From: Microcaldota archaeon
GTDB taxonomy: Archaea; Micrarchaeota; Micrarchaeia; Anstonellales; JAGGVH01
Assembly (NCBI GenBank): GCA_021158105.1
Contig: JAGGVH010000008.1
Location: forward strand, 1-32,227
Direction: 5' to 3'
Length of the DNA: 32,227 nucleotides
Positions 2,892 through 32,030 of the stretch are shown in pieces. Both the position numbers and the translations under genes were made by a program. Within the stretch, counting starts at the first letter, position 1. Each line of letters begins with the position of its first letter. Below the pieces are notes generated by a model that did no database searches, was not told the origin of the DNA, and saw nothing but the letters and a program-made list of their open reading frames with translations.

Positions 2892-4331
2892 TTATATTCT
2901 CATGTTCTTTTCATGATAAGTTACAGTATAAATGATTACAAATATTATCAATAAAAATATCACTGTGATTGGATTAAACATTACTGGGAGGCCAAAGATT
3001 TCTCCACCATTTACTGTGCTGCCGTCAATGATTGCACTGACGTTGAACATAATATGTAAAGGTATTGACAACATCAATGACACAATCCATGCTATTATCA
3101 ACATCTTGCGATCGTTTGTTAATGATTTGACATGTCCGATTATCGACCCACCGACACCAGTTACAATGCCGTGTGCTAAGCTATTGAATATTGAACGATA
3201 AACAATCAATTGAACCCATGGGAAGAATCCTAATGTGAACGGGTCAGCCCGTGATGCAAAATAGAACAGGTTTTCAATAAAACTAAACCCAATCCCGATC
3301 GTAAATCCAAACAACAGCCCTGTTATTGAATTGTCAAATATATGATGCAGTGATATTATAAACAATCCCAAACTTTTTGTTATCTCTTCAATCATCGGTG
3401 CAATCAATGCTGCGGTTAATAATAAATATAAAACACTGTTTTCATCAACATTATGCCCTTTTATTAGTCCAATCACTGAGGTGTTCAGTCCAAATGCGAT
3501 GTATGCAGCCACACCACCAAACAAGAAAAGTCCAAAAAAGAATTTTAACGGTTTGAATTCTTTGGTTTTTTCACTGTACCATGCAATTGCTAAGTAGATT
3601 ACAGGGAACAATAGTGCTCCCAATATACTTAAGATAAAGATTTGTGGCCACAGGGCATTTCCAGCGTTTCCATAATAATAATTTGTAACTATCCCCATTA
3701 TAATTATAATAATAAGCTCCACAATCCATGTGAATGGGTTGATTAATAATGTTGCAAACTCTTCGTAAATATCTCTTGCCCTCGGGAAGAAGAATGTTTC
3801 AACATTAAACGGTTTGACCGATAATGTTTGAGATACAAGGATTATGAATAATATAAATATGATTGCAATGATCGGTACAGTTACAATATTTGAACGGATA
3901 ATCCATTCTGCCACGCCCTTTTCATACTTTGACCAGTCTTCTTTAATCATAAAGAATTTGGTAGGATGTTTGCCATCATCATCTTCATTCATGAATATTA
4001 CAAACTGGCGAGTGTTATATGTTTTTTTATTGTATGATGTTTGAATGTTTATTCTGGTATGTATTTTTGTATTGGCGTCTATCGGGCCAATGGGTTTGAT
4101 AACATCAATCTTTTCGTCTTTAACTTCTCCAATGTATAGGATTTTAGGTGTATCTTGAGAATTTGTCACGTCAGCTTCAATGGTTATCAGGCCTTCTTTA
4201 TTGTCAAAGTTTGTATCACTTACTTTTATGTTACATAATAGCGTTGTTTTGACTTTTGTCAGTGGGATAGTGTATGAATGTAAAATTAATGAAAAGACAA
4301 TTATCAACATTATTATTTTTATCACTTTCAT
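2892..4331 (-). CDS. PrsW-family intramembrane protease with extracytoplasmic N-domain
   Basis: The protein has 479 residues. It begins with a signal anchor (MLIIVFSLILHSYTIPL), followed by an outside beta-rich domain of about 110 residues, then roughly ten membrane segments. The PrsW signatures are present: EEITK (E315, E316, K319), FIENLFYF (E353, N354), FNSLAHG (H387) and PLHIMFN (H426). PrsW enzymes are glutamic-type membrane proteases related to CPBP/Abi proteases and cut membrane proteins such as anti-sigma factors in bacteria. The outside domain is not part of the usual core and may sense or bind substrate. The start is ATG 4331 with GGTG six bases upstream. It lies 16 bases after the TPR-AAA+ gene and 8 bases before the DHH gene, so it is surely part of the operon. 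Confidence 0.85.
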   Translation of the reverse strand: MKVIKIIMLIIVFSLILHSYTIPLTKVKTTLLCNIKVSDTNFDNKEGLITIEADVTNSQDTPKILYIGEVKDEKIDVIKPIGPIDANTKIHTRINIQTSYNKKTYNTRQFVIFMNEDDDGKHPTKFFMIKEDWSKYEKGVAEWIIRSNIVTVPIIAIIFILFIILVSQTLSVKPFNVETFFFPRARDIYEEFATLLINPFTWIVELIIIIIMGIVTNYYYGNAGNALWPQIFILSILGALLFPVIYLAIAWYSEKTKEFKPLKFFFGLFLFGGVAAYIAFGLNTSVIGLIKGHNVDENSVLYLLLTAALIAPMIEEITKSLGLFIISLHHIFDNSITGLLFGFTIGIGFSFIENLFYFASRADPFTLGFFPWVQLIVYRSIFNSLAHGIVTGVGGSIIGHVKSLTNDRKMLIIAWIVSLMLSIPLHIMFNVSAIIDGSTVNGGEIFGLPVMFNPITVIFLLIIFVIIYTVTYHEKNMRI

Positions 4332-4347
4332 GTTTACACCTTAAATG

Positions 4348-6099
4348 TTAAAATGGTATGGGTACCCATAACCCTATGTTTTTTATAATCTTTGCAAATA
4401 ACTTATTGTACCACTTGTTTCTTTTATTTATCACATCGAGCAATGCTTTGAACTGGTCTTTTTCTGCAGGACCCAACTTGCTCTCAGTAATCTTAATATG
4501 TTCTTTGCCATCAACAATCGTCTTTTCTTCCTGTTTGCCTATCTGTTTGTTTGCTTGTGCATACCATGGCGGGAGCGAAGACTTTTTCTTTTTCACTGCA
4601 GCGATAAGGTCACCAATGCCAACCTTTCTTAGTTTAACTCTTTTTCTTGCTTCTTTTTCTGCTTGGTCTGGGTCCATACCACTTTGTACGAGTTTATCTT
4701 TAATCTTTTCAATCTTATGGAATGCTTCCCTCCACGGTCGCGCAGCAGCTTCATCAACAATCGCTCTAAGGTCAGCTGCCGCATACCCCCACGTAGCCAG
4801 TGCTAGCCTGTTCCATGCAATGTTTTTTGCGATCTTGTCAGCAGGCAACTTTTTCTTTAATCTTAATTTTAATATCTCCTTTCGTGAAGTGAAATCAGGT
4901 TCTGGAACATAGATAAGTTTACCAAGACGGCCCGCCCTTCTCAGTGCAGGGTCAACGTCCCATGGTGCATTTGTTGCGCCGACAATAAGGAAATCTTTGT
5001 TTGACGACTCGACACCGTCGATCTCATACAACAACTGATTAACTGCAGCTTTTAAGTACTGTGCACTTTCACCCATCTGGTCACGTCTCCCGCCCAATGC
5101 ATCAATTTCATCAATGAATAGTATACAAGGTGTGTTTTTCCGTGCAGTTTCAAAAATCTTGTGAATATTCTTTTCTGTTCCGCCGACATATTGGTCTAAA
5201 ATGTCTGATAATTTCACATTCAAAAAGTTGACTTCACATTCGCCTGCAGACGCTTTCATCACATAACTTTTACCACATCCTGGTGGGCCGTAAAGCAGTA
5301 TTCCTCCACCGCCCAGTACACCATATTCTTCTGCAAGGTCTGGGCGTTTTAACGGGTAGACAACCGCTTCTCTTAGCTCTTCTTTTAATTTTTCCATACC
5401 CGCAACATCAGCAAAGCTCATGTCAGGTTTTGTAAGAAACTTTGCAGTGTCAACCTCTTTACCTTGCCCGGGCCCGGTGGTTGGTATTGAAGATTCTGAA
5501 GGAACATATTCACCACTCATCTTACTTTTAGCAAGTTCGAGGTGCTGTTTTGCTTCTTCAAGGTTGGGGTTGAGTTCAAGTGCCTTGTTATAATCCTTGA
5601 TAGCATCGTTTAACCTGTTTAAATAATCGTATGCCAACCCTCTGACATGATATGCCTCTGCAAAGTTTGGGTTGAGTTCAATGACTTTTGTAAAATCTTT
5701 AATGGCACTTTCAAAGTCTTCTTTACAAGCATATGAAAGCCCTCTGTTGTAATATGCCTTTAAATATTTATCATTCAACATGATAGCCTTTTCATAATCT
5801 TCAATGGCCTTATCAAATTCTTTTTTTCTATAGTACGCATCGCCTTTGTTGTTGTATATCACTGGGTTGTTCGGGTCAAGTTCACTGGCTTTAGTATAGT
5901 CAGCAATCGCCTTATCAAAGTTTTTTAAGTAATAGTATGATAATGCACGCGCAAAATATGATTCAGAAAATGTTGGGTTTAACAGGATTGCCATGTTATA
6001 ATTTTCAATAGCCTTTTCATATTGTCCTTTCTCAAAATAGGCATTGCCCTTGTGATAGTACACTCTTGCATCCATTCCCCCAGAACCTCCCATCGGCAA
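4348..6099 (-). CDS. TPR-repeat AAA+ ATPase (Cdc48/Vps4-like single ring)
   Basis: The protein has 583 residues. After a glycine-rich start, five tetratricopeptide repeats plus a capping helix fill about residues 9-192. A linker then leads to one AAA+ domain (about 225-465). This has Walker A GPPGCGKS (271-278), pore loop YVGG (304-307), Walker B LFIDEIDAL (from 327), sensor-1 ATNAPW, and arginine-finger region LRRAGRLGK, where the usual GRFDR is changed to GRLGK. The C-terminal 120 residues are basic and end with KNIGLWVPIPF. The family remodels or unfolds proteins; the TPRs replace the usual substrate-receptor domain. The start is TTG 6099: it has GGTGA five bases upstream, overlapping the stop of the FKBP gene, while a nearby ATG (6103) is out of frame. 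Genes on both sides deal with protein folding and cutting. Confidence 0.88.
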   Translation of the reverse strand: MPMGGSGGMDARVYYHKGNAYFEKGQYEKAIENYNMAILLNPTFSESYFARALSYYYLKNFDKAIADYTKASELDPNNPVIYNNKGDAYYRKKEFDKAIEDYEKAIMLNDKYLKAYYNRGLSYACKEDFESAIKDFTKVIELNPNFAEAYHVRGLAYDYLNRLNDAIKDYNKALELNPNLEEAKQHLELAKSKMSGEYVPSESSIPTTGPGQGKEVDTAKFLTKPDMSFADVAGMEKLKEELREAVVYPLKRPDLAEEYGVLGGGGILLYGPPGCGKSYVMKASAGECEVNFLNVKLSDILDQYVGGTEKNIHKIFETARKNTPCILFIDEIDALGGRRDQMGESAQYLKAAVNQLLYEIDGVESSNKDFLIVGATNAPWDVDPALRRAGRLGKLIYVPEPDFTSRKEILKLRLKKKLPADKIAKNIAWNRLALATWGYAAADLRAIVDEAAARPWREAFHKIEKIKDKLVQSGMDPDQAEKEARKRVKLRKVGIGDLIAAVKKKKSSLPPWYAQANKQIGKQEEKTIVDGKEHIKITESKLGPAEKDQFKALLDVINKRNKWYNKLFAKIIKNIGLWVPIPF

Positions 6100-10569: not shown

Positions 10570-12318
10570 ATGGCAACTGTAAAGACTAAGATTGATGAGA
10601 TGTGTATTCTCCTTGAACAGAATGCTGAAGGGTTGGCAGTTTCAGAGATTGCTGATTATCTTAAGATTGATAAAGATATGGTTGAAAAGATTGCAAATGT
10701 TTTATCTTCTGTTGGCACTGTTTCAATCGAATATTCCCCCATTTCTGGCAATAAGATTATATTAAAACAGAAAAAATGGTTATTGCCTCATAAAACAGTA
10801 ACAGGCAAGGTTGCAGATGAATATGTATTGAACGTTAAAGGTATAACTGGTGATGTTGAGATAAAAAAGCCTGTGGGCAGTTTAGTTTATCATTACATAT
10901 TAACAGTTGTGGACATTGGTCCGTACACACAGGCATATTTAGAAGGTGTTAGGGATAAAATCGCAAGAGTTGTGATCATTTCACCAGAGGAATTGATGAA
11001 TACTAAGAAAACAAGTATTGTTTATGATAAATTTAGAAAGGCAGCTGAGCCATATTTTAATCTTCCAGGGATAACCAAAGAAAAGAAAGAAATACTCATG
11101 GGTTCTTTGCTTATCAAAATGTATGGCCTTGGCAAACTTGAATTTTTCTTGGTTGATGACAACTTAGAAGAGATCAGCATAAACGGTTCAAACGTGCCTT
11201 TAAGTGTTTATCATAAGAAGCACGGGTGGTGTAAAACAAATATTGTTATCCCAACAGAAGAGGAGATTTTTGAATATGCCGCCCAGATTGCCCGGCGGTC
11301 TGGCAGGGACATAACATTGTTATCACCTATAATGGATGCGCACCTTGAAACTGGTGACAGGGTTGCCGCCACATTGTTTCCCATAACCAGTTCTGGAAAC
11401 ACAATAACAATTCGTAAGTTTGCACGTAAACCTTGGACGATTGTAGATTTTATTGATCCGTCGCTTGGAACATTAAGCATTGAGATGGCGGCATTCTTAT
11501 GGTTGGGTGTGCAGTATGAACTTAACATATTAATTTCAGGCGGTACTGCAAGCGGTAAGACTAGTTTGTTGAATACGCTTGTGGCAATGATACCCGCAAA
11601 TCAAAGAGTGGTAAGTATTGAGGATACCAGAGAGATCAATCTGCCACAATATTCACAATGGAACTGGATACCTATGACTACTCGTTCAGAGAATGTAGAG
11701 GGCAAAGGTAAAGTTACAATGATAGACCTGATCCAGTCGTCGTTCAGGCTCAGGCCTGATAGGATGATCATTGGCGAAATCCGAAGGCCATTGGAAGCTC
11801 GAGCGATGTTTGAAGCAATGCACACTGGTCATTCAGTTTATACAACTATGCATTCTGAGAATGCAGACCAAATATTACGAAGGTTAAAGAATGAACCGTT
11901 CAATGTTCCGCCTGTTGAAATGCAGTCTTTACATCTTATTGTTGTCCAACACAGGGACAGGCGCACAGGTAAAAGAAGGACGTATGAAGTGTCAGAAGTT
12001 TTAACAACAACTACTAATACTACCCCATTAAACAAGGTGTATCTGTGGCACCCAAAGACTGACAAGTTTGAAAAGTTGTCTGAAAGTATAAGAGTGTTTG
12101 AAGAGCTTAACATGTATACTGGCATGATGCCAAAAGACATTGCCAAGGATTTAAAAGAAAAGAAAGTTATACTTGATTGGATGTTAAAAAAGGGTGTCAG
12201 GGACATTGATTCTGTTGGTGCAGTGATTAATGCATATTATACTAACCCTAATAAAGTGTTTAAACTTGCTAAGTCAAAATCACCTCCCGCTAAGGTTTTT
12301 TCAATATTAAAAGAGTGA
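10570..12318 (+). CDS. Type IV pilus/type II secretion assembly ATPase (GspE/VirB11/TadA-like)
   Basis: The protein has 582 residues. An N-terminal winged-helix-like segment (about 1-65) is followed by an archaeal N-domain, then the secretion ATPase core. Motifs are Walker A GGTASGKTS (324-332), Asp-box region IEDTREINLPQ (350-360), Walker B MIIGEIRRP (399-407, catalytic E403) and His-box HTGHSVYTTMHSE (418-430). The family forms a hexameric cytoplasmic motor that drives pilin polymerisation or secretion through a TadB/TadC-type membrane platform. The next two genes encode just such platform proteins, spaced 4 and 1 bases apart, so the three form one machine. The extra N-terminal winged helix is not in bacterial homologues as I know them. 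No pilin gene is seen next to it. Confidence 0.92.
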   Translation: MATVKTKIDEMCILLEQNAEGLAVSEIADYLKIDKDMVEKIANVLSSVGTVSIEYSPISGNKIILKQKKWLLPHKTVTGKVADEYVLNVKGITGDVEIKKPVGSLVYHYILTVVDIGPYTQAYLEGVRDKIARVVIISPEELMNTKKTSIVYDKFRKAAEPYFNLPGITKEKKEILMGSLLIKMYGLGKLEFFLVDDNLEEISINGSNVPLSVYHKKHGWCKTNIVIPTEEEIFEYAAQIARRSGRDITLLSPIMDAHLETGDRVAATLFPITSSGNTITIRKFARKPWTIVDFIDPSLGTLSIEMAAFLWLGVQYELNILISGGTASGKTSLLNTLVAMIPANQRVVSIEDTREINLPQYSQWNWIPMTTRSENVEGKGKVTMIDLIQSSFRLRPDRMIIGEIRRPLEARAMFEAMHTGHSVYTTMHSENADQILRRLKNEPFNVPPVEMQSLHLIVVQHRDRRTGKRRTYEVSEVLTTTTNTTPLNKVYLWHPKTDKFEKLSESIRVFEELNMYTGMMPKDIAKDLKEKKVILDWMLKKGVRDIDSVGAVINAYYTNPNKVFKLAKSKSPPAKVFSILKE

Positions 12319-12322
12319 TATC

Positions 12323-13168
12323 ATGTTTGGTCTGATGCCGGTATGGATTGATTGGGCACCGGGGTTTCTTAAGGTGATTATATATATTTTTGAACCGCTG
12401 ATAGAGGGATTCCTAAAAAATATAAAACTTCTTAAAGTTAGACCTGAAACTTATGTTTTGAATATGTTGATCAATACATTATTATACACAACTATATTAT
12501 TCCTGATAACATATTTTGGGTATACATTGTTTGGGATTGTATATGATACTTCATTTATTATAATCATATTTTTCATCATTTTAATATTTTTTATTTTCTA
12601 TCCTAAGATTATAATTTCACAATTGAAAGAACGTATTGACAGGGAACTGTTTTATGCGCTGCGTGATATGACAGTTCAAGTGTCTGCAGGCATACCATTG
12701 TATAATGCAATAAAAAATATTGCCAAAAGTGATTATGGTGTAGTTTCTGATGAATTTAATATGGTGGTTTCTGATATTGAAGCAGGAATATCATTAGATG
12801 ATGCATTAAAACGTATGATGGATAGAACATACTCAGATTATCTCCGGAGAGTATTATGGCAAATTATTGTTGTGATCAAGTCTGGGTCGCCTGTTGTGAA
12901 CGTTTTAGAGAACATATCACAGTCATTAAAGAATTCCCAAAACAGAAAGTTGTCAAGTTATTTGTATGAGATGAATTTATGGGTTATTATCTATTTAATC
13001 GTTTCAGTCACCATTCCTGCACTAGTTTTTGTGTTATCATCAGTATTTACAACGTTTGTTGGTGTTAATCCTTTTTCATTTGTATTGTTCTTTTTGATTT
13101 TGTCATCAATATTTCAATTGTTGATAATATGGTATGTTAAGATTAGAAGACCCAACGTGGTGGAATGA
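12323..13168 (+). CDS. Type II secretion F-domain membrane protein (TadB/FlaJ-like), first copy
   Basis: The protein has 281 residues with two N-terminal membrane helices (about 44-66 and 76-95), a cytoplasmic T2SSF helical bundle (about 100-215, with ALRDMTVQVSAGIPLYNAI and DDALKRM) and two C-terminal helices (about 220-245, 250-270). This is the membrane platform fold of archaeal pili and archaella. GAGTGAT lies just before the ATG, and the upstream ATPase stop is only four bases away. It lacks one half of the longer double-domain FlaJ type; the following gene provides the second half, as in Tad-type systems. Confidence 0.88.
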   Translation: MFGLMPVWIDWAPGFLKVIIYIFEPLIEGFLKNIKLLKVRPETYVLNMLINTLLYTTILFLITYFGYTLFGIVYDTSFIIIIFFIILIFFIFYPKIIISQLKERIDRELFYALRDMTVQVSAGIPLYNAIKNIAKSDYGVVSDEFNMVVSDIEAGISLDDALKRMMDRTYSDYLRRVLWQIIVVIKSGSPVVNVLENISQSLKNSQNRKLSSYLYEMNLWVIIYLIVSVTIPALVFVLSSVFTTFVGVNPFSFVLFFLILSSIFQLLIIWYVKIRRPNVVE

Positions 13169-13169
13169 T

Positions 13170-14033
13170 ATGAAATTTAAAAGTGCACTTGACATGACTG
13201 GACAAAAACCATTTGAATGGTTATTTAGGACATTTTTGTTATCTTTATTCATGTCAATAATCTTTTCAGTATTATCATATGTTTTTGCAGATGATATTGT
13301 GTTTACATTAGTAGTTTTTATTTCAGTTAATTTGTTAATCTTGGTTTTCTCATTATTGTATGTTTATTATAAGGCATCACAGGTCATTGAAGAAATTGAT
13401 TTGGTTTTGCCAGATTACCTAGACAATGTTGCAGGATATATCAAGGCAGGCTTTTCACCAATACTTGCTCTTAAAAGCGGGTTAAGGGAAGAGTATGGTA
13501 TATTAAACACTTCTCTTAACCTTGCAACAATAAAATCTCTTGGTCCTACACCAGCAGAGACTGAAATTTTGAAAGCAACATCTGAATTGGGTTCTGATAA
13601 ACTCCAACGGATTTTAACACTGTTTCTAACTTCTTATATTAGTGGGGGCAAGGTGGGAGTAATGCTTGAGAGGATAGCAAATGATTTACGCGAGGCTAAT
13701 GAACTTAAAAAGAAATTAGTGACAGGTGTTAATGTTTATATAATTTTTATTTCATTATCTTTAATCTTTATTTTGCCATTGATAATTTCAGTATCGCTTA
13801 AGTTTTTAGAGATTGGGCTGGAGAGTGAAATTAGTCAGTTTGATATGTCTGGGATGACCACGTTGGGTGTATTATTTTTGACAGTCAGTTCAATGTTGAC
13901 GGGGATGTTCATCGGTGCAATTCGGTACGGTAGAGAACTTATGGGATTTAAGCATTCGTTATATATGGCATTGTTATCAAATGTGATGTTTGTTATATAC
14001 TCAAATTATGTTATCCATTTGTTGATGTCTTAA
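13170..14033 (+). CDS. Type II secretion F-domain membrane protein (TadC/FlaJ-like), second copy
   Basis: The protein has 287 residues from ATG 13170, which has GGTGG six bases upstream and lies one base after the previous stop; the frame extends further upstream but that would overlap the previous gene. Two N-terminal membrane helices (about 22-42, 46-66), a T2SSF bundle (about 75-190, with LPDYLDNVAGYIKAGFSPIL and GGKVGVMLERIANDLREA) and two or three C-terminal helices are visible. It pairs with the previous protein to make the inner-membrane platform for the ATPase. The gene ends 14 bases from the convergent RtcB gene. Confidence 0.88.
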   Translation: MKFKSALDMTGQKPFEWLFRTFLLSLFMSIIFSVLSYVFADDIVFTLVVFISVNLLILVFSLLYVYYKASQVIEEIDLVLPDYLDNVAGYIKAGFSPILALKSGLREEYGILNTSLNLATIKSLGPTPAETEILKATSELGSDKLQRILTLFLTSYISGGKVGVMLERIANDLREANELKKKLVTGVNVYIIFISLSLIFILPLIISVSLKFLEIGLESEISQFDMSGMTTLGVLFLTVSSMLTGMFIGAIRYGRELMGFKHSLYMALLSNVMFVIYSNYVIHLLMS

Positions 14034-14047
14034 CAAGTAATTGTCTA

Positions 14048-16861
14048 CTATCCTTTCACAACACCTAATGGCACCATCTTGCCCACTGCTCTGCTTATTC
14101 CTGCACGGACTACGCTGTCAATGACGTCATCAATATTTTTATAAGCGTCCGGGGCTTCTTCTGAGATTACTTTTTTGTCAGCTGCCCAGATAAAGATGTC
14201 TTTGGTGTTCAGGTTATTCTTAACATTTTGCCATGGATATTGTTTGATTGCCTGATGGCGTGACATTACTCTTCCTGCCCCGTGGCATGTTGAGCCGAAT
14301 GTTTCTTCCATTCCTTTCTTTTCGCCAACCAATACGTATGATGCAGTGCCCATGCTGCCAGGGATTAAAACGGGTTGGCCGATGTCCTTATAAACTACAG
14401 GGAGTTCTGGACGGCCCGCTGCAAACGCGCGCGTTGCGCCTTTTCTGTGGACGATGAGATTCATATTTTTGCCGTCAACTTTATGCCTTTCAAACTTTGC
14501 AATGTTGTGTGCAACGTCATAAACGAGTTTCATATCTTCGCTGACTGAACCGCCGAACACTGCATCAAAACTTTCTCTGACCCAATGCATTATAATATGC
14601 CTGTTTGTGAATGCATAATTTACTGCGCATTTCATTGCAGCAATGTAATCGTCAGCAGGTTTTGAACCTATCTCACCATAACATAATTCATTGTCTTTAA
14701 GTTTAATGTTATGTTGTCTGTCATAATCCAACATCACACGTATTGAGTCGTCACACACCTGATGACCGAAACCTCTTGATCCGCAGTGTATCATTACTAC
14801 AACTTGATTCTTAAATAGTCCAAACTTCTTTGCAGTGTCTTCGTGTAATATATCTTCAACCTTCTGAACTTCTAAGAAATGGTTGCCTGCTCCTAATGTA
14901 CCGAGCTGTGGGAGTCCTCTCTTTATTGCTTTTTCAGAGACTTTAGAAGGGTCAGCACCGTCCATCCTACCATTCTCTTCACAGTGTTCAATGTCATCCT
15001 TTCGTCCGTAGCCCTGTTCAACAGCCCATTCTACGCCTCCGACCAATACACTTTCAAGTTCACCCCTGTTTAATTTTAACCTGCCTTTTGAGCCTACCCC
15101 GCTTGGCACATTCTTAAAAAGTGTTTTGACAAGTTCTTGAATCTTGGGTTTGACGTCGTCAGTTGTAAACGGAGTGGTCACAAGTCGTACCCCGCAGTTT
15201 GAAACGATGATTCCGTTAGCGATAAAATTATGTGTTTTTTCGATAGTAAAATCATATACCTTTCCCTTATATTGTTTCTTTTCTATTGAATATATCTCTG
15301 CACCAAAACCACCAAACATTGCATAATACTTCATCTGTTTTTTAACAAAGGAAGCAAACGAGGGAAAATCCAATGATAATCGTGTCCCTGCATTTTCATA
15401 TAATGCACGTTCTATAAATCTGTCATTTATCCTCCCTTTCAACATTTTCTTAATTTCGTTTGTCCTAAATCCTTGTTTTCTTTTATCTCTTATCCATTTT
15501 GCAAGTTTATTCCGTTCCATTCTATGTTTTAATTTTTTTCTTAAATACAACACAGCAATCATGGCCAAGAGCTTTCTTTTAACATTGTATTCAAAACCAA
15601 TTTTAGAATATAATCTTATCAAATTTCCAGGTTTCCCGTTTATGAATAATCTTAATCTGACTTTTCCGTTTTTGTTTTCAATGGTTGATATCTTTGATAT
15701 TCTTATCCCCAAATCTTCTAAAATCTGGCTAATTTGCAACATAAACAATCTTAAATTGTTCTCCAATCTTTTTTCTTTAGTCATTGTAATGTTAGGTAAA
15801 TATAAACATGTTTTACTCATAGTTTTTGGTTTGGACATCTCTGCACCAAAATAACCTGCCAAGAATTGTCGTTTGACCCATAAAGGACCTTTCATGATCC
15901 ATTCAGGAACGGCGAATTTAGTTTTTGTTTTATTACCTAATGGCATACCAAGCTCAATAAGTTTAATGATAAATTCTTTTGAATGAATATGAAGCTCCCA
16001 ATTATCAGCCCGAAATTTTTTACCATCAATATTATGATTTCTTTTCCGATGATATAACTTAGAATTATATCCTAACAATTTTAAATCATTAGACATCTCT
16101 TCAAGGTCTTCTTTAACACCGTAAGCTACAGCATATAATCTGTTTCTGGATTTATATACTGTGCCATCGCCGATTAAATATCCTAAAATTTTTGTGATTA
16201 TTGATAATTTTTTATCTTCTTCTAAATTTTTATATCTTTTATATTCAACTCCCTCAAATGGCAAACTTAGAAGAATATCATTTTCTGTTAAATCTTTTGC
16301 TAACTTTTTACCATTTGTAGTAAACACTGGGTGGTCCCCCGTACATTTTATTATGCCACTGTCTGAACTAATCTTATATATCTCACCGTCATAGTTCCGA
16401 TGCATAAAGTTTTCAATGTTTGATTTGCCATCTTTTGACAACACCCCATACTGCGAGATGATATTAAATAGGTAAGTGTTGCCATTTGTCGCAAGAATAA
16501 TATTTGATAGAAAATTATGGTTTTTCATCTTAATATTCCAACCATATGGGGTTGGTATTTTCATATCACCTGTTAGACAATTTATATCATAGCCTACTCC
16601 CCCGGGTGAAATTATGCCGTTATCAGCGTCAAATGCGGCAACGCCGCCTATCGGAAAACCATATCCTTCATGGCCGTCTGGCATAACAAGGGCATGTTTG
16701 ACAATGTTGGGCAGTGTTGCAACATTGCTTATTTGTGTGAATGTTCTATCCCGCAACATTCCGTTTTTCAGTTTTTCGTTTGCGATTATGTGGACTGGAA
16801 CGTTCATGTCACCATGCTTCTTTATCTCCCAAACAGTATCAGTTATCTTTTCTATCTCCAT
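14048..16861 (-). CDS. rtcB: RtcB RNA-splicing ligase, interrupted by an intein
   Basis: The precursor has 937 residues: N-extein 1-94, intein 95-555, C-extein 556-937, giving a mature ligase of 476 residues, the normal length. RtcB joins 2',3'-cyclic phosphate and 5'-hydroxyl RNA ends using GTP and Mn, sealing tRNA exons after the splicing endonuclease. Extein signatures are PDGHEGYGFPIGGVAA, GGVGYDIN/CGVRLV (the Cys after the intein is the conserved Mn ligand), LGTLGAGNHFLEVQ, MIHCGSRGFGHQVC, GSMGTASYVLVG and CHGAGRVMSR, which includes the guanylylation-site histidine region. The start is ATG 16861 with AGGTGA upstream. Three intron-containing tRNA genes lie within 6 kb and need this activity. 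Confidence 0.95.
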   Translation of the reverse strand: MEIEKITDTVWEIKKHGDMNVPVHIIANEKLKNGMLRDRTFTQISNVATLPNIVKHALVMPDGHEGYGFPIGGVAAFDADNGIISPGGVGYDINCLTGDMKIPTPYGWNIKMKNHNFLSNIILATNGNTYLFNIISQYGVLSKDGKSNIENFMHRNYDGEIYKISSDSGIIKCTGDHPVFTTNGKKLAKDLTENDILLSLPFEGVEYKRYKNLEEDKKLSIITKILGYLIGDGTVYKSRNRLYAVAYGVKEDLEEMSNDLKLLGYNSKLYHRKRNHNIDGKKFRADNWELHIHSKEFIIKLIELGMPLGNKTKTKFAVPEWIMKGPLWVKRQFLAGYFGAEMSKPKTMSKTCLYLPNITMTKEKRLENNLRLFMLQISQILEDLGIRISKISTIENKNGKVRLRLFINGKPGNLIRLYSKIGFEYNVKRKLLAMIAVLYLRKKLKHRMERNKLAKWIRDKRKQGFRTNEIKKMLKGRINDRFIERALYENAGTRLSLDFPSFASFVKKQMKYYAMFGGFGAEIYSIEKKQYKGKVYDFTIEKTHNFIANGIIVSNCGVRLVTTPFTTDDVKPKIQELVKTLFKNVPSGVGSKGRLKLNRGELESVLVGGVEWAVEQGYGRKDDIEHCEENGRMDGADPSKVSEKAIKRGLPQLGTLGAGNHFLEVQKVEDILHEDTAKKFGLFKNQVVVMIHCGSRGFGHQVCDDSIRVMLDYDRQHNIKLKDNELCYGEIGSKPADDYIAAMKCAVNYAFTNRHIIMHWVRESFDAVFGGSVSEDMKLVYDVAHNIAKFERHKVDGKNMNLIVHRKGATRAFAAGRPELPVVYKDIGQPVLIPGSMGTASYVLVGEKKGMEETFGSTCHGAGRVMSRHQAIKQYPWQNVKNNLNTKDIFIWAADKKVISEEAPDAYKNIDDVIDSVVRAGISRAVGKMVPLGVVKG
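15197..16579 (-). other. Intein with LAGLIDADG homing endonuclease inside RtcB
   Basis: This in-frame insert codes for 461 residues. It starts with Cys (CLTGDMKIPTPYG, block A) and has block B with CTGDHPVF (the TxxH motif), LAGLIDADG motifs LGYLIGDG (intein 132-139) and LAGYFGAE (240-247, Glu at the acid position). A basic helix-turn-helix-like region lies around 350-395. Block F is VYDFTIEKTHNFIANG and block G is IIVSN, followed by Cys+1. Ends are exact because GYDIN/CGVR is an invariant RtcB motif. The penultimate residue is Ser rather than the common His. Both endonuclease acids are present, so it may still be active. RtcB inteins at this site are known in other archaea such as Pyrococcus. 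Confidence 0.95.
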
Positions 16862-27261: not shown

Positions 27262-27348
27262 GACATTTTATACAGCTTTAAAATTATAAAACTTTCATAA
27301 TACAACACAAACAAAGGTTTAAATATATTTTGTGTTATAATATATAAT

Positions 27349-29205
27349 ATGGTGGGTGAAAAAGTGCACAAAACAAATGGTAATAAAAAAGTGTCAAAAG
27401 AGTTAAATATTGATAAAAAACATGATGTTTTTAGGAAAATTATTGAAACAGATACATCCAATTGGTTTGATTATGATACAATAACTCGATTTAATTCAAT
27501 TGCATGTGACAGTTCAACATCACTCAGTGCAAGATATGGTGTTTTTGTTAAAGTTGTTGATGGTAGTGTTTATCCTTCTGGTACTTTTAAAGATATAAGA
27601 AATTATTCGCTTATTTTAAGTGATGCTGGAAAAGAGAAAGTAGCATATGTTCATATTACATGTGGTAATTCAGGGATTTCCTTAGCAAAACTTTGCAGAG
27701 AATGGACTGAAAGGACAGAGGGCAGGCAGGAGAGAATAGCTGTTATTATCATTGGTAAGGATGCAGATAGAAATGCAATCAAAACTTTAAAAAAACTTGC
27801 AAGAATGGATAGAGGGAAAAGCATAATTCTTCTTAGTACAAACCTATCAAAACATGAGATTACTGATGTCCAATTACGTGAGATTGCTTTAAAAGCTACA
27901 AAAGGTAGAGTAAAACCAAATGAGGTTCGTCTTGTTGAAAGAATCTCTGATGAAGATACTGGATATGCGCTTTTTGCAAAGCAGATATTCAAAGAAAATA
28001 AGGATTCAAAAGCAATCTTTCTTCCAGTTGGTGGTGGCGAATTTTTTTATAATCTTTGTAGAGAATTCATAAAACTTTATAACGAAAATAATTTGCCTCT
28101 CCCTAAAATTATAGGTGTTAGTCCAAAAGGTGCGAATCCCTTTACATTGGTAGGTAGGGTGGATGAGACTGATGAGGAATATAAAATGAAAGTTTTCAAT
28201 GCACCAGACAATAAAGTTTTCATTAAAACAAGAAACACTGTTGTGAAAACGCTTGAAACACCATGCTCAAATTTTTATCCTTTAGTTAGAAAACTTATTC
28301 TTCAGCATCCTCAAATTGAAATTATGCTTGTTTCAGATGATGAAGTTAGGGAAGAATTAAAAGAGGTTTCACGATATTATAAAATTGAGCCCGCAAGTGC
28401 TACAGCATTTGCTGGATGTTATAAGGTATGTAAACATCTTAATTTAACAGAAAATGATAAAATAACTATAATAAACACAGGTAAAGGTGTAAATAAACTT
28501 CCAAAGAAAAAGAAATGGTGGACAACTCCTTTGATGGTTGGTGGTTCAGTAATAGTCACATTTTTTGCAACGCTTGGTGTTTACTCATATACTTGGAAAT
28601 ATCATTGGAATATCATGCATGATGCTGAAACGAGATTTGTTAAAAAGCATATTTCCAAAACATTTAAGAACCAGACTATTGCATCTTTCGGACGAAAAGA
28701 AAGTGATATTGATTTTGATATTTCTCTTAGGTTATATGCTACAAAGAATGGTTCAAAAATAAGTTATGATGATTATATTGATTATCTTCTTAAGCATGGG
28801 TTTATAACAAAAGAAGAATATTCTAGGCAAGTTTCAAAAGGCAATGATGTAAATTCTCCTGTAATAGATACATCAACACATTATGTTTTATCTCCATATG
28901 ATTCTGTAGTATATGCTTATAAGTTGCTTCCGCCTGTAATAACATCAAATTTATGGAGATATATGGAAAGCTATGAATATACAAATGATTTTTATCAGTT
29001 TTCGAATGATTTTTATCGATTTTCTCCGGATTCCTTTACATTCACAGATACACTCTCAGATGCTTCACTCAATTGGGAATTTACCTTTTCAAGGTATAAT
29101 CTCATAGAAGAAAACCTTTCAATTGTTGATAAAATGAAAATAACATTTTCTGGTTGGTGGAACATTCTGGTTAGAAAATTAAAAAATGTTTCAGACCCAG
29201 ACTAA
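27349..29205 (+). CDS. Threonine-synthase-like PLP enzyme fused to a membrane anchor and unknown domain
   Basis: The protein has 618 residues. Residues about 45-385 are a fold-type II PLP enzyme: GTFKDIRN holds the Schiff-base lysine K81, CGNSG (105-109) matches the substrate loop SSGN, PVGGGEFF (226-230) is the phosphate loop, EPASATAFAGC and NTGKG complete the core. A KKKKWW border precedes one membrane helix (about 393-412), then about 200 residues with NDFYQFSNDFYRFS repeats and many aromatic residues, likely outside if the enzyme is inside. No known threonine or cysteine synthase has such a tail to my knowledge. The start is ATG 27349 or GTG 27364, the latter with GGTGA four bases upstream. 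Substrate unknown. Confidence 0.75.
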   Translation: MVGEKVHKTNGNKKVSKELNIDKKHDVFRKIIETDTSNWFDYDTITRFNSIACDSSTSLSARYGVFVKVVDGSVYPSGTFKDIRNYSLILSDAGKEKVAYVHITCGNSGISLAKLCREWTERTEGRQERIAVIIIGKDADRNAIKTLKKLARMDRGKSIILLSTNLSKHEITDVQLREIALKATKGRVKPNEVRLVERISDEDTGYALFAKQIFKENKDSKAIFLPVGGGEFFYNLCREFIKLYNENNLPLPKIIGVSPKGANPFTLVGRVDETDEEYKMKVFNAPDNKVFIKTRNTVVKTLETPCSNFYPLVRKLILQHPQIEIMLVSDDEVREELKEVSRYYKIEPASATAFAGCYKVCKHLNLTENDKITIINTGKGVNKLPKKKKWWTTPLMVGGSVIVTFFATLGVYSYTWKYHWNIMHDAETRFVKKHISKTFKNQTIASFGRKESDIDFDISLRLYATKNGSKISYDDYIDYLLKHGFITKEEYSRQVSKGNDVNSPVIDTSTHYVLSPYDSVVYAYKLLPPVITSNLWRYMESYEYTNDFYQFSNDFYRFSPDSFTFTDTLSDASLNWEFTFSRYNLIEENLSIVDKMKITFSGWWNILVRKLKNVSDPD

Positions 29206-29216
29206 AATAAAAATTT

Positions 29217-30221
29217 TTAATAATATGGAAACATATTAACATAATCTGAGGAAATTATTGGCAGAATTTCATAATCCTTTATATTTTCAAACTTTTCTCT
29301 AAATTGATTTATAAACATCTTTATTTCATTTTCATTCTTTGCATAAAGGTGTACCATAACACCCCAAGCGCCAAACTGTTTTGTTGCCTCATCAACAAGT
29401 GGATGTGTTGCAAGATAATTAAACATTTTTTGTTCAGTTTCTTTATAGTAATATCTCAATGAAAAAAGAATAAAATATGATTTATGTAGTTTATCATTAA
29501 TAAAAGTTTTATATCCCTTGATAATACCTCTATCTTCTAATTTTTTAATTCTGTAAAGGATTGTTTTATAACTTAATTTTGTGATGTTTGCAAGCTCTGT
29601 GCTTGTTAACCTGCAGTTTTGGCTGATGTATTTTAAGATTAGTTTATCAACATCATCAATTTTTACTGTTTCATAACTTACAGGAATTGATATGATTTTA
29701 TTTTTCAAAAGAGATTTTGGAGAGAGATATTTTATGGGGTAAATATAATGGTTTTTAACATAGACATCTTCTATTTCACCCATTATGTTTGGAAAATGTG
29801 TATAACATAAATCAATAAAGTTGTCATAATCAATATAATTTTTGACATATATTGCTATGTATAAATCATACTTGCCGCCAAGAGTTGAAATGTTATATAC
29901 TCCCCAACCACTTTCAATGAATTCCCTTACCTTCCTAACTGATATGGGGTCAACTTTTTTAAGTTTGAAAAATAATCTATAATGCTCAAATCCTAAGTAG
30001 TTCATATTTATTATTGTAGAAAACGATCTTATTGTTTTATTTTCAATTAAACGATTCAATCTGTAAGAAACCACCTGCACCGACCGTCTTGTAGAATATG
30101 CAATTTTTTTAATACTTATTTTGGGATTGTCAATTAACATTTTAATTATCCTGATATCTAATTTATCCAAGGAATTGTTCTCTTTTGCGATTATTCTCTT
30201 ATGATTATTAATTTTTTTCAT
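29217..30221 (-). CDS. Lrp/AsnC-family regulator with two tandem modules
   Basis: The protein has 334 residues, twice the usual length. Each half has a helix-turn-helix and a RAM-type ligand domain. First module: DKLDIRIIKMLIDNPKISIK and RRSVQVVSYRLNRLIE, then the ligand fold with GGKYDLYIAIYVKN. Second: DVDKLILKYISQNCRLTS and SYKTILYRIKKLEDRGIIKGY, then FGAWGVMVHLYAKNENEI. The family senses amino acids and controls their metabolism, so the adjacent PLP-enzyme fusion is a fair candidate target. It converges with that gene (11-base gap) and diverges from the ATPase gene. Confidence 0.85.
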   Translation of the reverse strand: MKKINNHKRIIAKENNSLDKLDIRIIKMLIDNPKISIKKIAYSTRRSVQVVSYRLNRLIENKTIRSFSTIINMNYLGFEHYRLFFKLKKVDPISVRKVREFIESGWGVYNISTLGGKYDLYIAIYVKNYIDYDNFIDLCYTHFPNIMGEIEDVYVKNHYIYPIKYLSPKSLLKNKIISIPVSYETVKIDDVDKLILKYISQNCRLTSTELANITKLSYKTILYRIKKLEDRGIIKGYKTFINDKLHKSYFILFSLRYYYKETEQKMFNYLATHPLVDEATKQFGAWGVMVHLYAKNENEIKMFINQFREKFENIKDYEILPIISSDYVNMFPYY

Positions 30222-30335
30222 TATATTTAATTATTAGATAGAAAAACATATAAAAGTTTCTAATATTCAAAAAAAATTGCAATTGAATTTATATATCTAT
30301 ATATACAAAATATATAACAGAAAGATGTGGTATAC
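30222..30335. promoter_or_regulatory. Divergent promoter region between Lrp-like and ATPase genes
   Basis: A TATA-like TTTTATATG (minus strand, 30254-30246) lies about 28 bases before the Lrp-like ATG. For the plus strand TTTATATATC (about 30289) and AAATATATAA (about 30308) lie about 42 and 24 bases before ATG 30336. A regulator of the Lrp type often binds its own promoter, and the AT tracts would suit that, but no clear palindrome is seen. Confidence 0.4.
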
Positions 30336-32030
30336 ATGGGGAAAATTAATAGATATCTTGAATGTTTTATATATTCAGAAAAGGTTACTGTCAATGAAAA
30401 TAAAAATTTTTATGATAATCTGATTAATACTCGTGCCCCCTTCTTAGGACTCATAAGATTTTCAGATATTCTTTCCTTAAGAGGCCTGTCTTTTATAGTG
30501 AAATGCCAAGGCAACACTATACGATTATTTGTTAAGAGTAAACCTAATCTTTATGTTCAGGCACCTCTTGTTTTTCCTTATAGGTTAGAAAGAGCGAAAA
30601 ATGTTGAGTTTGTAAACGGGAGAATCCCTTTAGGATTACACATAATACCTGATGGCAATATGTTTAATTTTATTATAAAAGAAAATCTACAAGAGATTCA
30701 TATGAGAATTATTAAAATCTTAGGCAAATTTTATGGGTTGGGCACAACAGTTAATAAGAATGGTAAGAAGAGTGTTTTATTACTGTTAAACCCTGCAAAG
30801 TTTTTTGAGATTGACTTGGAGAAAAATCCTGCCTTTTATATAAAACTTTTAGATCCTCTTCCAAAAATGATGACTTTACATTCTTCTAAACCCGTATTTG
30901 AATCTACTGATGTAACAATTGGTGTTGATACATATGATCCTTTCCAGCATACACTTGTGGTGGGAACCTCCGGTGCCGGCAAAACCAAATATTTAGAGAT
31001 ACTTATAAGGGCAGTTTTGGAACATAATAAGGATACTCATATTGTTGTCATAGACCCCCATGATGAATTTTCAAAAGAGTTGCCAGAGGGTAAAGTGATT
31101 AATTTTAAAGATAATTATATTGAACCTTTAGATACTGGTGGTGATAAAAGTCCATTACAAGCTCAATTGATTGCACATACTATTACGTCAACAATCGGAC
31201 AAGAAAACAAGTATGCTGAGAGGGTAGTTTTTTATGCAGTTCACCTTTTAGCATCAATAGATAAACTGACATTGAAAAATATTAATTTTCTCCTAACTGA
31301 TTCAACAAAGAGGGCAGAGTTTGCTTCACAATGTGATAATGAAGAAGTCAAACGATTTTTTGATGAAGAGTTTCAAGACATTTACATGCAACATTTTAAC
31401 GATTCAATACTCCCTATTACTAATTTTATAGGTGAATACCTTCTTTTCCTTGGAGGGGAGAAGAAAAGAGAAAAGTTGAATGATTTAGTAGAAAAGAATA
31501 GGTTAACTATTATCTCTTTCAATCCACACTATTTTGGAAGGAACATGATAAAATTTTTTGCAGCATCAATTGTTAATCAGATGTATACTCTTGCGATCAA
31601 CGGAAAAATAACACACCCAACATTGCTTATGATTGATGAGGCTGCAATCATTCAAACAAAAATAATGAAAAATATCCTTGCAGAATCAAGAAAATTTAAT
31701 CTTTATCTTTGTTTGTCTGCCCAGTATCTTAATCAGTTTTCAAAAGAAATCCTTGATTCTGTAATGGGTAATGTGCGCAATATCATTGCTTTCAAGGTTA
31801 CAAAAGAAGATGCAAGGATACTCAGTTCAACAATGGAAATTAAAGTTGAAGAATATTTTAAGAAAAAGCTAAGTCCGAGTGAACTTGAACAGGCAATAAG
31901 GGAGATGTTCATCAATCTTGACCCGCAGGAATGTATAGTTAGGCTCTTTGATGGTAAAAAATATATTTTGCCTATGAAAGTCAAAACTGTTGATATGAAA
32001 AAATGGGAGAATGAAGAAAAAGATGTATAA
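30336..32030 (+). CDS. HerA/VirD4-like (DUF87) P-loop ATPase
   Basis: The protein has 564 residues from ATG 30336; GTG 30327 is an alternative. An N-terminal domain of about 200 residues leads to the ATPase core with Walker A VVGTSGAGKT (208-217), VVIDPHDEFSKELP right after the first strand (a hallmark of the HerA/FtsK group), Walker B LLMIDEAA (430-437) and the later FNLYLCLSAQYLNQF motif typical of VirD4/TrwB-like coupling ATPases. The family pumps DNA or protein through a pore, as in conjugation, or works in DNA repair. No relaxase or NurA nuclease is in view. The role here is open. The following gene starts 50 bases downstream and may be a partner. Confidence 0.8.
   Translation: MGKINRYLECFIYSEKVTVNENKNFYDNLINTRAPFLGLIRFSDILSLRGLSFIVKCQGNTIRLFVKSKPNLYVQAPLVFPYRLERAKNVEFVNGRIPLGLHIIPDGNMFNFIIKENLQEIHMRIIKILGKFYGLGTTVNKNGKKSVLLLLNPAKFFEIDLEKNPAFYIKLLDPLPKMMTLHSSKPVFESTDVTIGVDTYDPFQHTLVVGTSGAGKTKYLEILIRAVLEHNKDTHIVVIDPHDEFSKELPEGKVINFKDNYIEPLDTGGDKSPLQAQLIAHTITSTIGQENKYAERVVFYAVHLLASIDKLTLKNINFLLTDSTKRAEFASQCDNEEVKRFFDEEFQDIYMQHFNDSILPITNFIGEYLLFLGGEKKREKLNDLVEKNRLTIISFNPHYFGRNMIKFFAASIVNQMYTLAINGKITHPTLLMIDEAAIIQTKIMKNILAESRKFNLYLCLSAQYLNQFSKEILDSVMGNVRNIIAFKVTKEDARILSSTMEIKVEEYFKKKLSPSELEQAIREMFINLDPQECIVRLFDGKKYILPMKVKTVDMKKWENEEKDV

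Follow-up and report, generated by a model that had tools for sequence, protein, structure and literature searches.

Fold-type-II PLP enzymes are known as soluble enzymes of metabolism. The described proteins closest to the one considered here are the threonine synthases (PDB 6nmx, 6cgq, 2zsj and 1uim) and the serine racemases and serine-threonine dehydratases (2zpu, 3l6b and 1pwe), the latter being a soluble family with a glycine-rich GGGG loop and neither a transmembrane (TM) helix nor an outer domain, in all of which our protein differs. Reuse of a PLP domain for sensing and control is known from the MocR-type regulators, in which a fold type I PLP domain serves as an amino-acid sensor; these have another PLP fold and bind DNA rather than the membrane, and offer an analogy only. 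Sensing across a single membrane span is exemplified by STIM1, a single-pass EF-hand sensor. In the Ced and Ted DNA-import systems of archaea, CedB and TedB are VirB4-HerA ATPases (PMC9905601).

The locus described here lies in a 32,227-nucleotide stretch of DNA from a Microcaldota archaeon (contig JAGGVH010000008.1), which was analysed whole and is called the window throughout. An uninterrupted open reading frame on its forward strand (27349..29205, 618 aa, ATG start, no internal stop) was recognised, together with comparison of homologues, as a gene in which a PLP domain, a TM helix and an outer domain are fused. A putative TATA-box-like, AT-rich element, TTTAAATATATTTT, can be read from the sequence at 27318..27331 (+), ~25 bases before the ATG, and its nearness to the start codon suggests a leaderless archaeal transcript. 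Literature searches returned no paper joining Micrarchaeota, threonine synthase and transmembrane, and nothing relevant on the fusion itself.

The fold-type-II PLP domain occupies residues 58-380 (27520..28488, +). Pfam PALP (PF00291) spans residues 58-378 with an E-value of 3.9e-16 and 59.7 bits against a gathering cut-off of 35, most of the core was modelled well by AlphaFold, and Foldseek with that model returned threonine synthase, serine racemase and dehydratases at E-values of about 1e-15 to 1e-12, the match to the threonine synthase 6nmx having an E-value of 2.1e-15. With the threonine synthases the protein shares its fold (Foldseek E 2e-15, target-normalised TM score ~0.65), the Lys, Asn and Thr cofactor contacts and an EPxxA motif, at 18-22% identity; with the racemases and dehydratases it shares the fold (target-normalised TM score ~0.7 for the racemases) and the cofactor Lys. 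The roles tested by alignment, those of Schiff-base Lys, PLP O3' Asn and pyridine-N Thr/Ser, fall to K81 in GTFKD (codon 27589-27591), N107 in CGNSG (27667-27669) and T377 in NTGKG (28477-28479, all +), each aligned with the PLP-contact motifs of the reference enzymes. Among the 14 TM homologues, the Asn and the Thr are kept in 14/14 and the Lys in 13/14, with Arg aligned at its position in L038, where the Lys is apparently lost. The type II PLP core proposed by the first-pass annotation is thereby borne out, and the window protein is, on motif and model comparison, a member of the fold-type-II PLP superfamily that is predicted to bind PLP.

The phosphate loop is GGGE in the window protein (residues 228-231, 28030-28041, +) and GxGE in 13/14 TM homologues, a form shared by the two TM-less relatives nearest to them. 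Glu here replaces the Gly found at the fourth loop position of the reference enzymes (GTGG, GGGG and the GNAG of threonine synthase). Side chains vary at this position in other threonine-synthase-like proteins of the order too, so that GxGE alone is no argument against PLP binding; within the sequences compared, GxGE is a diagnostic feature of the loop.

The retention of catalytic residues, the nearest folds (threonine synthase, serine racemase and dehydratases) and the existence in the order of TM-less relatives are all in keeping with an ordinary metabolic enzyme that is anchored to the membrane, for example beside a transporter, and that acts on a hydroxy-amino acid by beta-elimination, replacement or racemisation, in which case the ATPase linkage described below would be incidental. 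We consider this explanation somewhat unlikely, given that the ATPase is linked in 11/12 genomes, that every NCBIfam equivalog was missed (24-29 bits against cut-offs of 167-421), that divergence is unusually fast for a housekeeping enzyme and that the outer domain is conserved. Biosynthetic threonine synthase was itself rejected, both on the NCBIfam cut-offs and because homoserine dehydrogenase (PF00742) is missing from 16/16 genomes tested, including that of the window (G000, ~89% complete), with controls positive in 14/14; the membrane helix and the outer tail likewise set the protein apart from threonine synthase. At another locus, the window's genome has a gene for an ordinary CysK-type enzyme.

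Downstream of the PLP domain, a basic flank (LPKKKKWWTTP) that is predicted to be cytosolic is followed by a single hydrophobic helix at residues 395-413 by hydropathy, the two together covering 28498..28587 (+); in the AlphaFold model the helix extends over residues 392-447. In 14/14 homologues 4-8 Lys/Arg precede the helix and the net charge after it is ~zero, which predicts an N-in/C-out topology with the PLP domain cytosolic and the tail outside. This putatively extracytoplasmic tail (residues 414-618, 28588..29202, +) is lineage-specific: Pfam gave no match in the last 205-220 residues, and among 301 genomes the window-type tail is carried only by the window's genome and by a second genome of the genus, G001. 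The membrane tether noted previously, made up in the window protein of KKKKWW, one helix and a tail of ~205 residues without a Pfam match, is real, and one helix followed by an outer domain is conserved across genomes. The NDFYxFS repeats reported with it come to no more than a neighbouring pair in the window protein, with NDFY at residues 546 and 553, and are of minor interest because there are only two and they are not conserved in G001. The most conserved tail block between the window and G001 is DTSTHYVLSPYDSVVYAYKLLPP, and the window tail was poorly modelled by AlphaFold, with pLDDT mostly below 50. A match to this tail in G003 (L010) was judged spurious.

The tail of the sister family (f7), which is 124 residues long in L040, was modelled alone and gave a confident helical structure (pLDDT 92, pTM 0.85) with a helix-loop-helix at NRDGDTFVSSEE, and an EF-hand-like loop is found at that aligned position in 8/12 sister-family tails. 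A regular expression for the EF loop matched 9 times in these tails, once elsewhere than at the aligned position, where shuffling led us to expect 0.29 matches. The same tails scored below the cut-off of the Pfam EF-hand models, and against the PDB all Foldseek E-values were above 2, with about half of the weak matches being calmodulins or other EF-hand proteins. The resemblance to STIM1, that is an extracytoplasmic EF-hand-like domain, one TM helix and a cytosolic output, applies to the sister family only and is one of topology, the window tail having no recognisable EF loop. The idea that the window tail is a degenerate EF-hand, to which YATKNGSKISYDDY is similar by eye, found no support: scanning the tails of the window protein and of G001 with the loop pattern turned up no canonical 12-residue Ca2+ loop, and profile-profile comparison detected no homology between the window tail and the EF-hand-like sister tails (probability 0.1%). 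Each tail type is confined to these fusions, apart from one marginal match.

Across 301 genomes of the phylum, the PLP family was matched in 17 at E <= 1e-20, and the TM form, consisting of PLP domain, one TM helix and outer tail, is represented by 14 proteins in 12/301 genomes, all from one Micrarchaeota order; the named contigs that carry the family belong to Micrarchaeota/'ainarchaeum' MAGs. A scan of 85,000 species added a single match, a weak one to a TM-less Woesearchaeota protein. Viral origin was rejected, since viral contigs held no relatives of the PLP protein and PHROG gave no match for it. The window tail has no homologue outside the genus and the contig ends ~200 bases past the ATPase, both of which might suggest that a frameshift or misassembly had joined two genes. 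We regard such an artefact as exceedingly improbable: the homologue from the same genus, that of G001, can be aligned across both the TM helix and the tail (query 54-611, 36%), and 12 further proteins from 10 genomes show the same fusion of PALP, TM helix and tail without internal stops. These independent full-length homologues demonstrate that the fusion is genuine; throughout the TM clade the tails are kept along with the cofactor residues, and no frameshift was found, so that none of the outcomes which the first-pass annotation had named as refuting occurred in this clade. In a tree of 40 PLP proteins of the phylum, all TM forms are united at 98/91 with one ankyrin form nested inside, and a single gain of the TM architecture is the simplest reading of this clade.

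The protein evolves at different rates along its length and relative to its partner: median pairwise identity is 63% in the ATPase, drops to 37% in the PLP core and is lowest, at 17%, in the tail, which is the fastest-evolving part. Such a gradient would be expected of a surface protein for specificity or contact, in which the outer domain does the work (recognition of self, host or phage) and the PLP domain is mainly a cytosolic anchor or scaffold. Three divergent PLP-TM paralogues surround the ATPase in one locus of G064 (L039 4337-11011), L038 apparently lacks the catalytic Lys, and the PLP core has been reused with ankyrin repeats, all of which fit this reading. Opposed to it is the near invariance of the PLP-contact residues at low overall identity; that these residues stay intact while the rest of the protein diverges fast implies selection for cofactor binding, and we therefore hold the surface-protein explanation to be unlikely. 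In the third G064 paralogue the Lys loop is altered, and the D that follows the catalytic Lys has become A. The ankyrin proteins of G061 (L050 6010-8634) and G034 (L051, L052) carry the same PLP core with ankyrin repeats in place of the TM helix, and an EF-hand-like loop, DINYDGELNFRE, lies close to the end of the G061 protein.

The near-constant neighbour of the PLP-TM gene is a HerA/VirB4-like ATPase, which the first-pass annotation had overlooked. In the window it lies at 30327..32030 (+), was identified from Pfam and NCBIfam matches and neighbourhood comparison, and has a conserved N-terminal domain together with DUF87 (2.8e-10) and TrwB_AAD_bind (1.4e-6) matches in Pfam that place it in the HerA/VirB4 class. 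The ATPase is adjacent and divergent, or parted from the PLP-TM gene by the Lrp gene alone, in 10/12 TM-PLP genomes. In G060 it lies within 4 kb, and in G067, where the PLP gene is 186 bases from a contig end and another contig holds the ATPase, truncated close to its N-terminus, the two are probably adjacent across the contig break. It is present in 12/12 TM-PLP genomes compared with 44/84 genomes of the order (hypergeometric P 1.9e-4, phylogeny ignored). Both genomes with the ankyrin form, G061 and G034, are without the ATPase and without the Cys-rich family described below, and this joint loss of TM helix and ATPase suggests a shared function of the TM form and the ATPase. In G001 (C84, C112, C6, C10) pieces of the ATPase are scattered, some at contig ends, and the C-terminal half of the ATPase and a Cys-rich array appear to have been split from the PLP gene by the assembly.

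Next to the ATPase there are often arrays of proteins from a Cys-rich family, which occurs in 44/84 genomes of the order. Beyond the ATPase these arrays hold 2-5 paralogues (L035, L038, L039, L040, L041, L042) built of ~260-aa modules with the motif RCFEVDxCxxCSDxYFCHNCENxxDCMFCFN; the modules have no Pfam or NCBIfam match, number up to ~30 matches per genome and presumably resemble the Cys-rich proteins of CPR bacteria. The window's genome shows none of these, its contig ending directly past the ATPase. About 32 genomes have the ATPase and the Cys-rich family without the PLP-TM protein, which is accordingly dispensable to them. TM-less threonine-synthase-like PALPs with GTHKDRM/GSAA motifs (L152, L049 16182-17201, L154) adjoin Cys-rich genes in G037 and the ATPase in G060, or lie near an HTH_10 regulator in G076, so that association of PALPs with the ATPase system is recurrent. 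In G012 the same slot is taken by a radical-SAM protein of 1075 aa with one TM helix (L115 10578-13802), which adjoins the ATPase, is convergent with a tandem Lrp gene and is another membrane-tethered enzyme in the ATPase system; its tail did not match the EF-hand-like tail. Pilin-like small proteins (class III signal-peptide-like) are encoded near the PLP-TM or ATPase genes in three genomes (L036 5286-5753, L106 3084-3557, L115 6266-6724).

Between the two genes of the window, at 29217..30221 (-) and convergent with the PLP gene, lies a tandem Lrp/AsnC-type regulator with two HTHs and an AsnC ligand-binding domain. Its presence agrees with the first-pass annotation; as a conserved partner it did not hold up, being beside the PLP-TM gene in only 3/12 genomes (window, G001 and G064), convergent every time. 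Elsewhere the window encodes a PrsW-type intramembrane protease (2892-4331) adjoining a 583-aa protein that combines TPR repeats with a fused AAA ATPase domain (4348-6099, -), a type IV filament assembly operon (10570-14033, +) in which a T2SSE pilus/archaellum-type ATPase is followed by two T2SSF membrane proteins, and an RtcB RNA ligase of 937 aa (14048-16861, -) with an intein bearing a LAGLIDADG endonuclease domain.

The partner ATPase belongs, like CedB and TedB, to the HerA/VirB4 class that powers DNA translocation; Ced and Ted as described have no PLP protein, unlike the window locus. A match to the CedD model was weak (1e-11, far below the cut-off), and simple TM counts with selected Pfam scans recognised no CedA/VirB6-like channel and no pilin in the conserved neighbourhood, for which reason we do not file the locus under Ced/Ted. 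A known defence system was also rejected, PADLOC giving no match for the PLP protein and only generic HerA/mad8 ATPase matches for its neighbour.

Taken together, the explanation we favour, tentatively and at a little short of an even chance, is that the PLP-TM protein is a PLP- and amino-acid-binding membrane accessory of the HerA/VirB4-like ATPase system. Weighing against it are the ~32 genomes that do without the protein, the unusual GxGE loop, the apparent loss of the catalytic Lys in one homologue and the poor model of the window tail. It would be a single-pass N-in/C-out protein whose cytosolic PLP-binding domain belongs, within fold type II, to the threonine-synthase-like branch and whose outer part is a lineage-specific domain, which in the sister family is confidently predicted to be helical and contains an EF-hand-like loop, and its host system would be the set of Micrarchaeota genes built on the ATPase and, in relatives, the Cys-rich arrays. 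On the cytosolic side of the membrane the PLP domain would bind PLP and an amino acid, via catalysis or the formation of a stable aldimine, and the membrane helix would couple this state to the outer domain, which evolves fast. In this way the protein might sense, gate or modify the ATPase machine depending on amino-acid supply or contact outside. The amino-acid sensor role suggested earlier may hold; the substrate channelling suggested alongside it is not borne out, as nothing supports channelling through a single helix. A bolder version, which we find doubtful, is that a receptor-like transmembrane protein, with a recruited PLP domain as its sensor or effector in the cytosol, controls an undescribed HerA/VirB4-ATPase transfer machine in Micrarchaeota, which would make this the first membrane-spanning fold-type-II PLP protein to serve signalling and not metabolism.

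The Micrarchaeota are poorly understood archaea that are largely host-dependent, and our analysis points to an ATPase and Cys-rich-array system in about half of the genomes of one of their orders. In a class of enzymes otherwise known as soluble, the PLP-TM proteins form a conserved membrane-anchored clade with a fast-evolving outer domain and a linkage to a translocase-class ATPase. If the explanation we favour is true, PLP chemistry or amino-acid binding would be wired into a cell-envelope machine.
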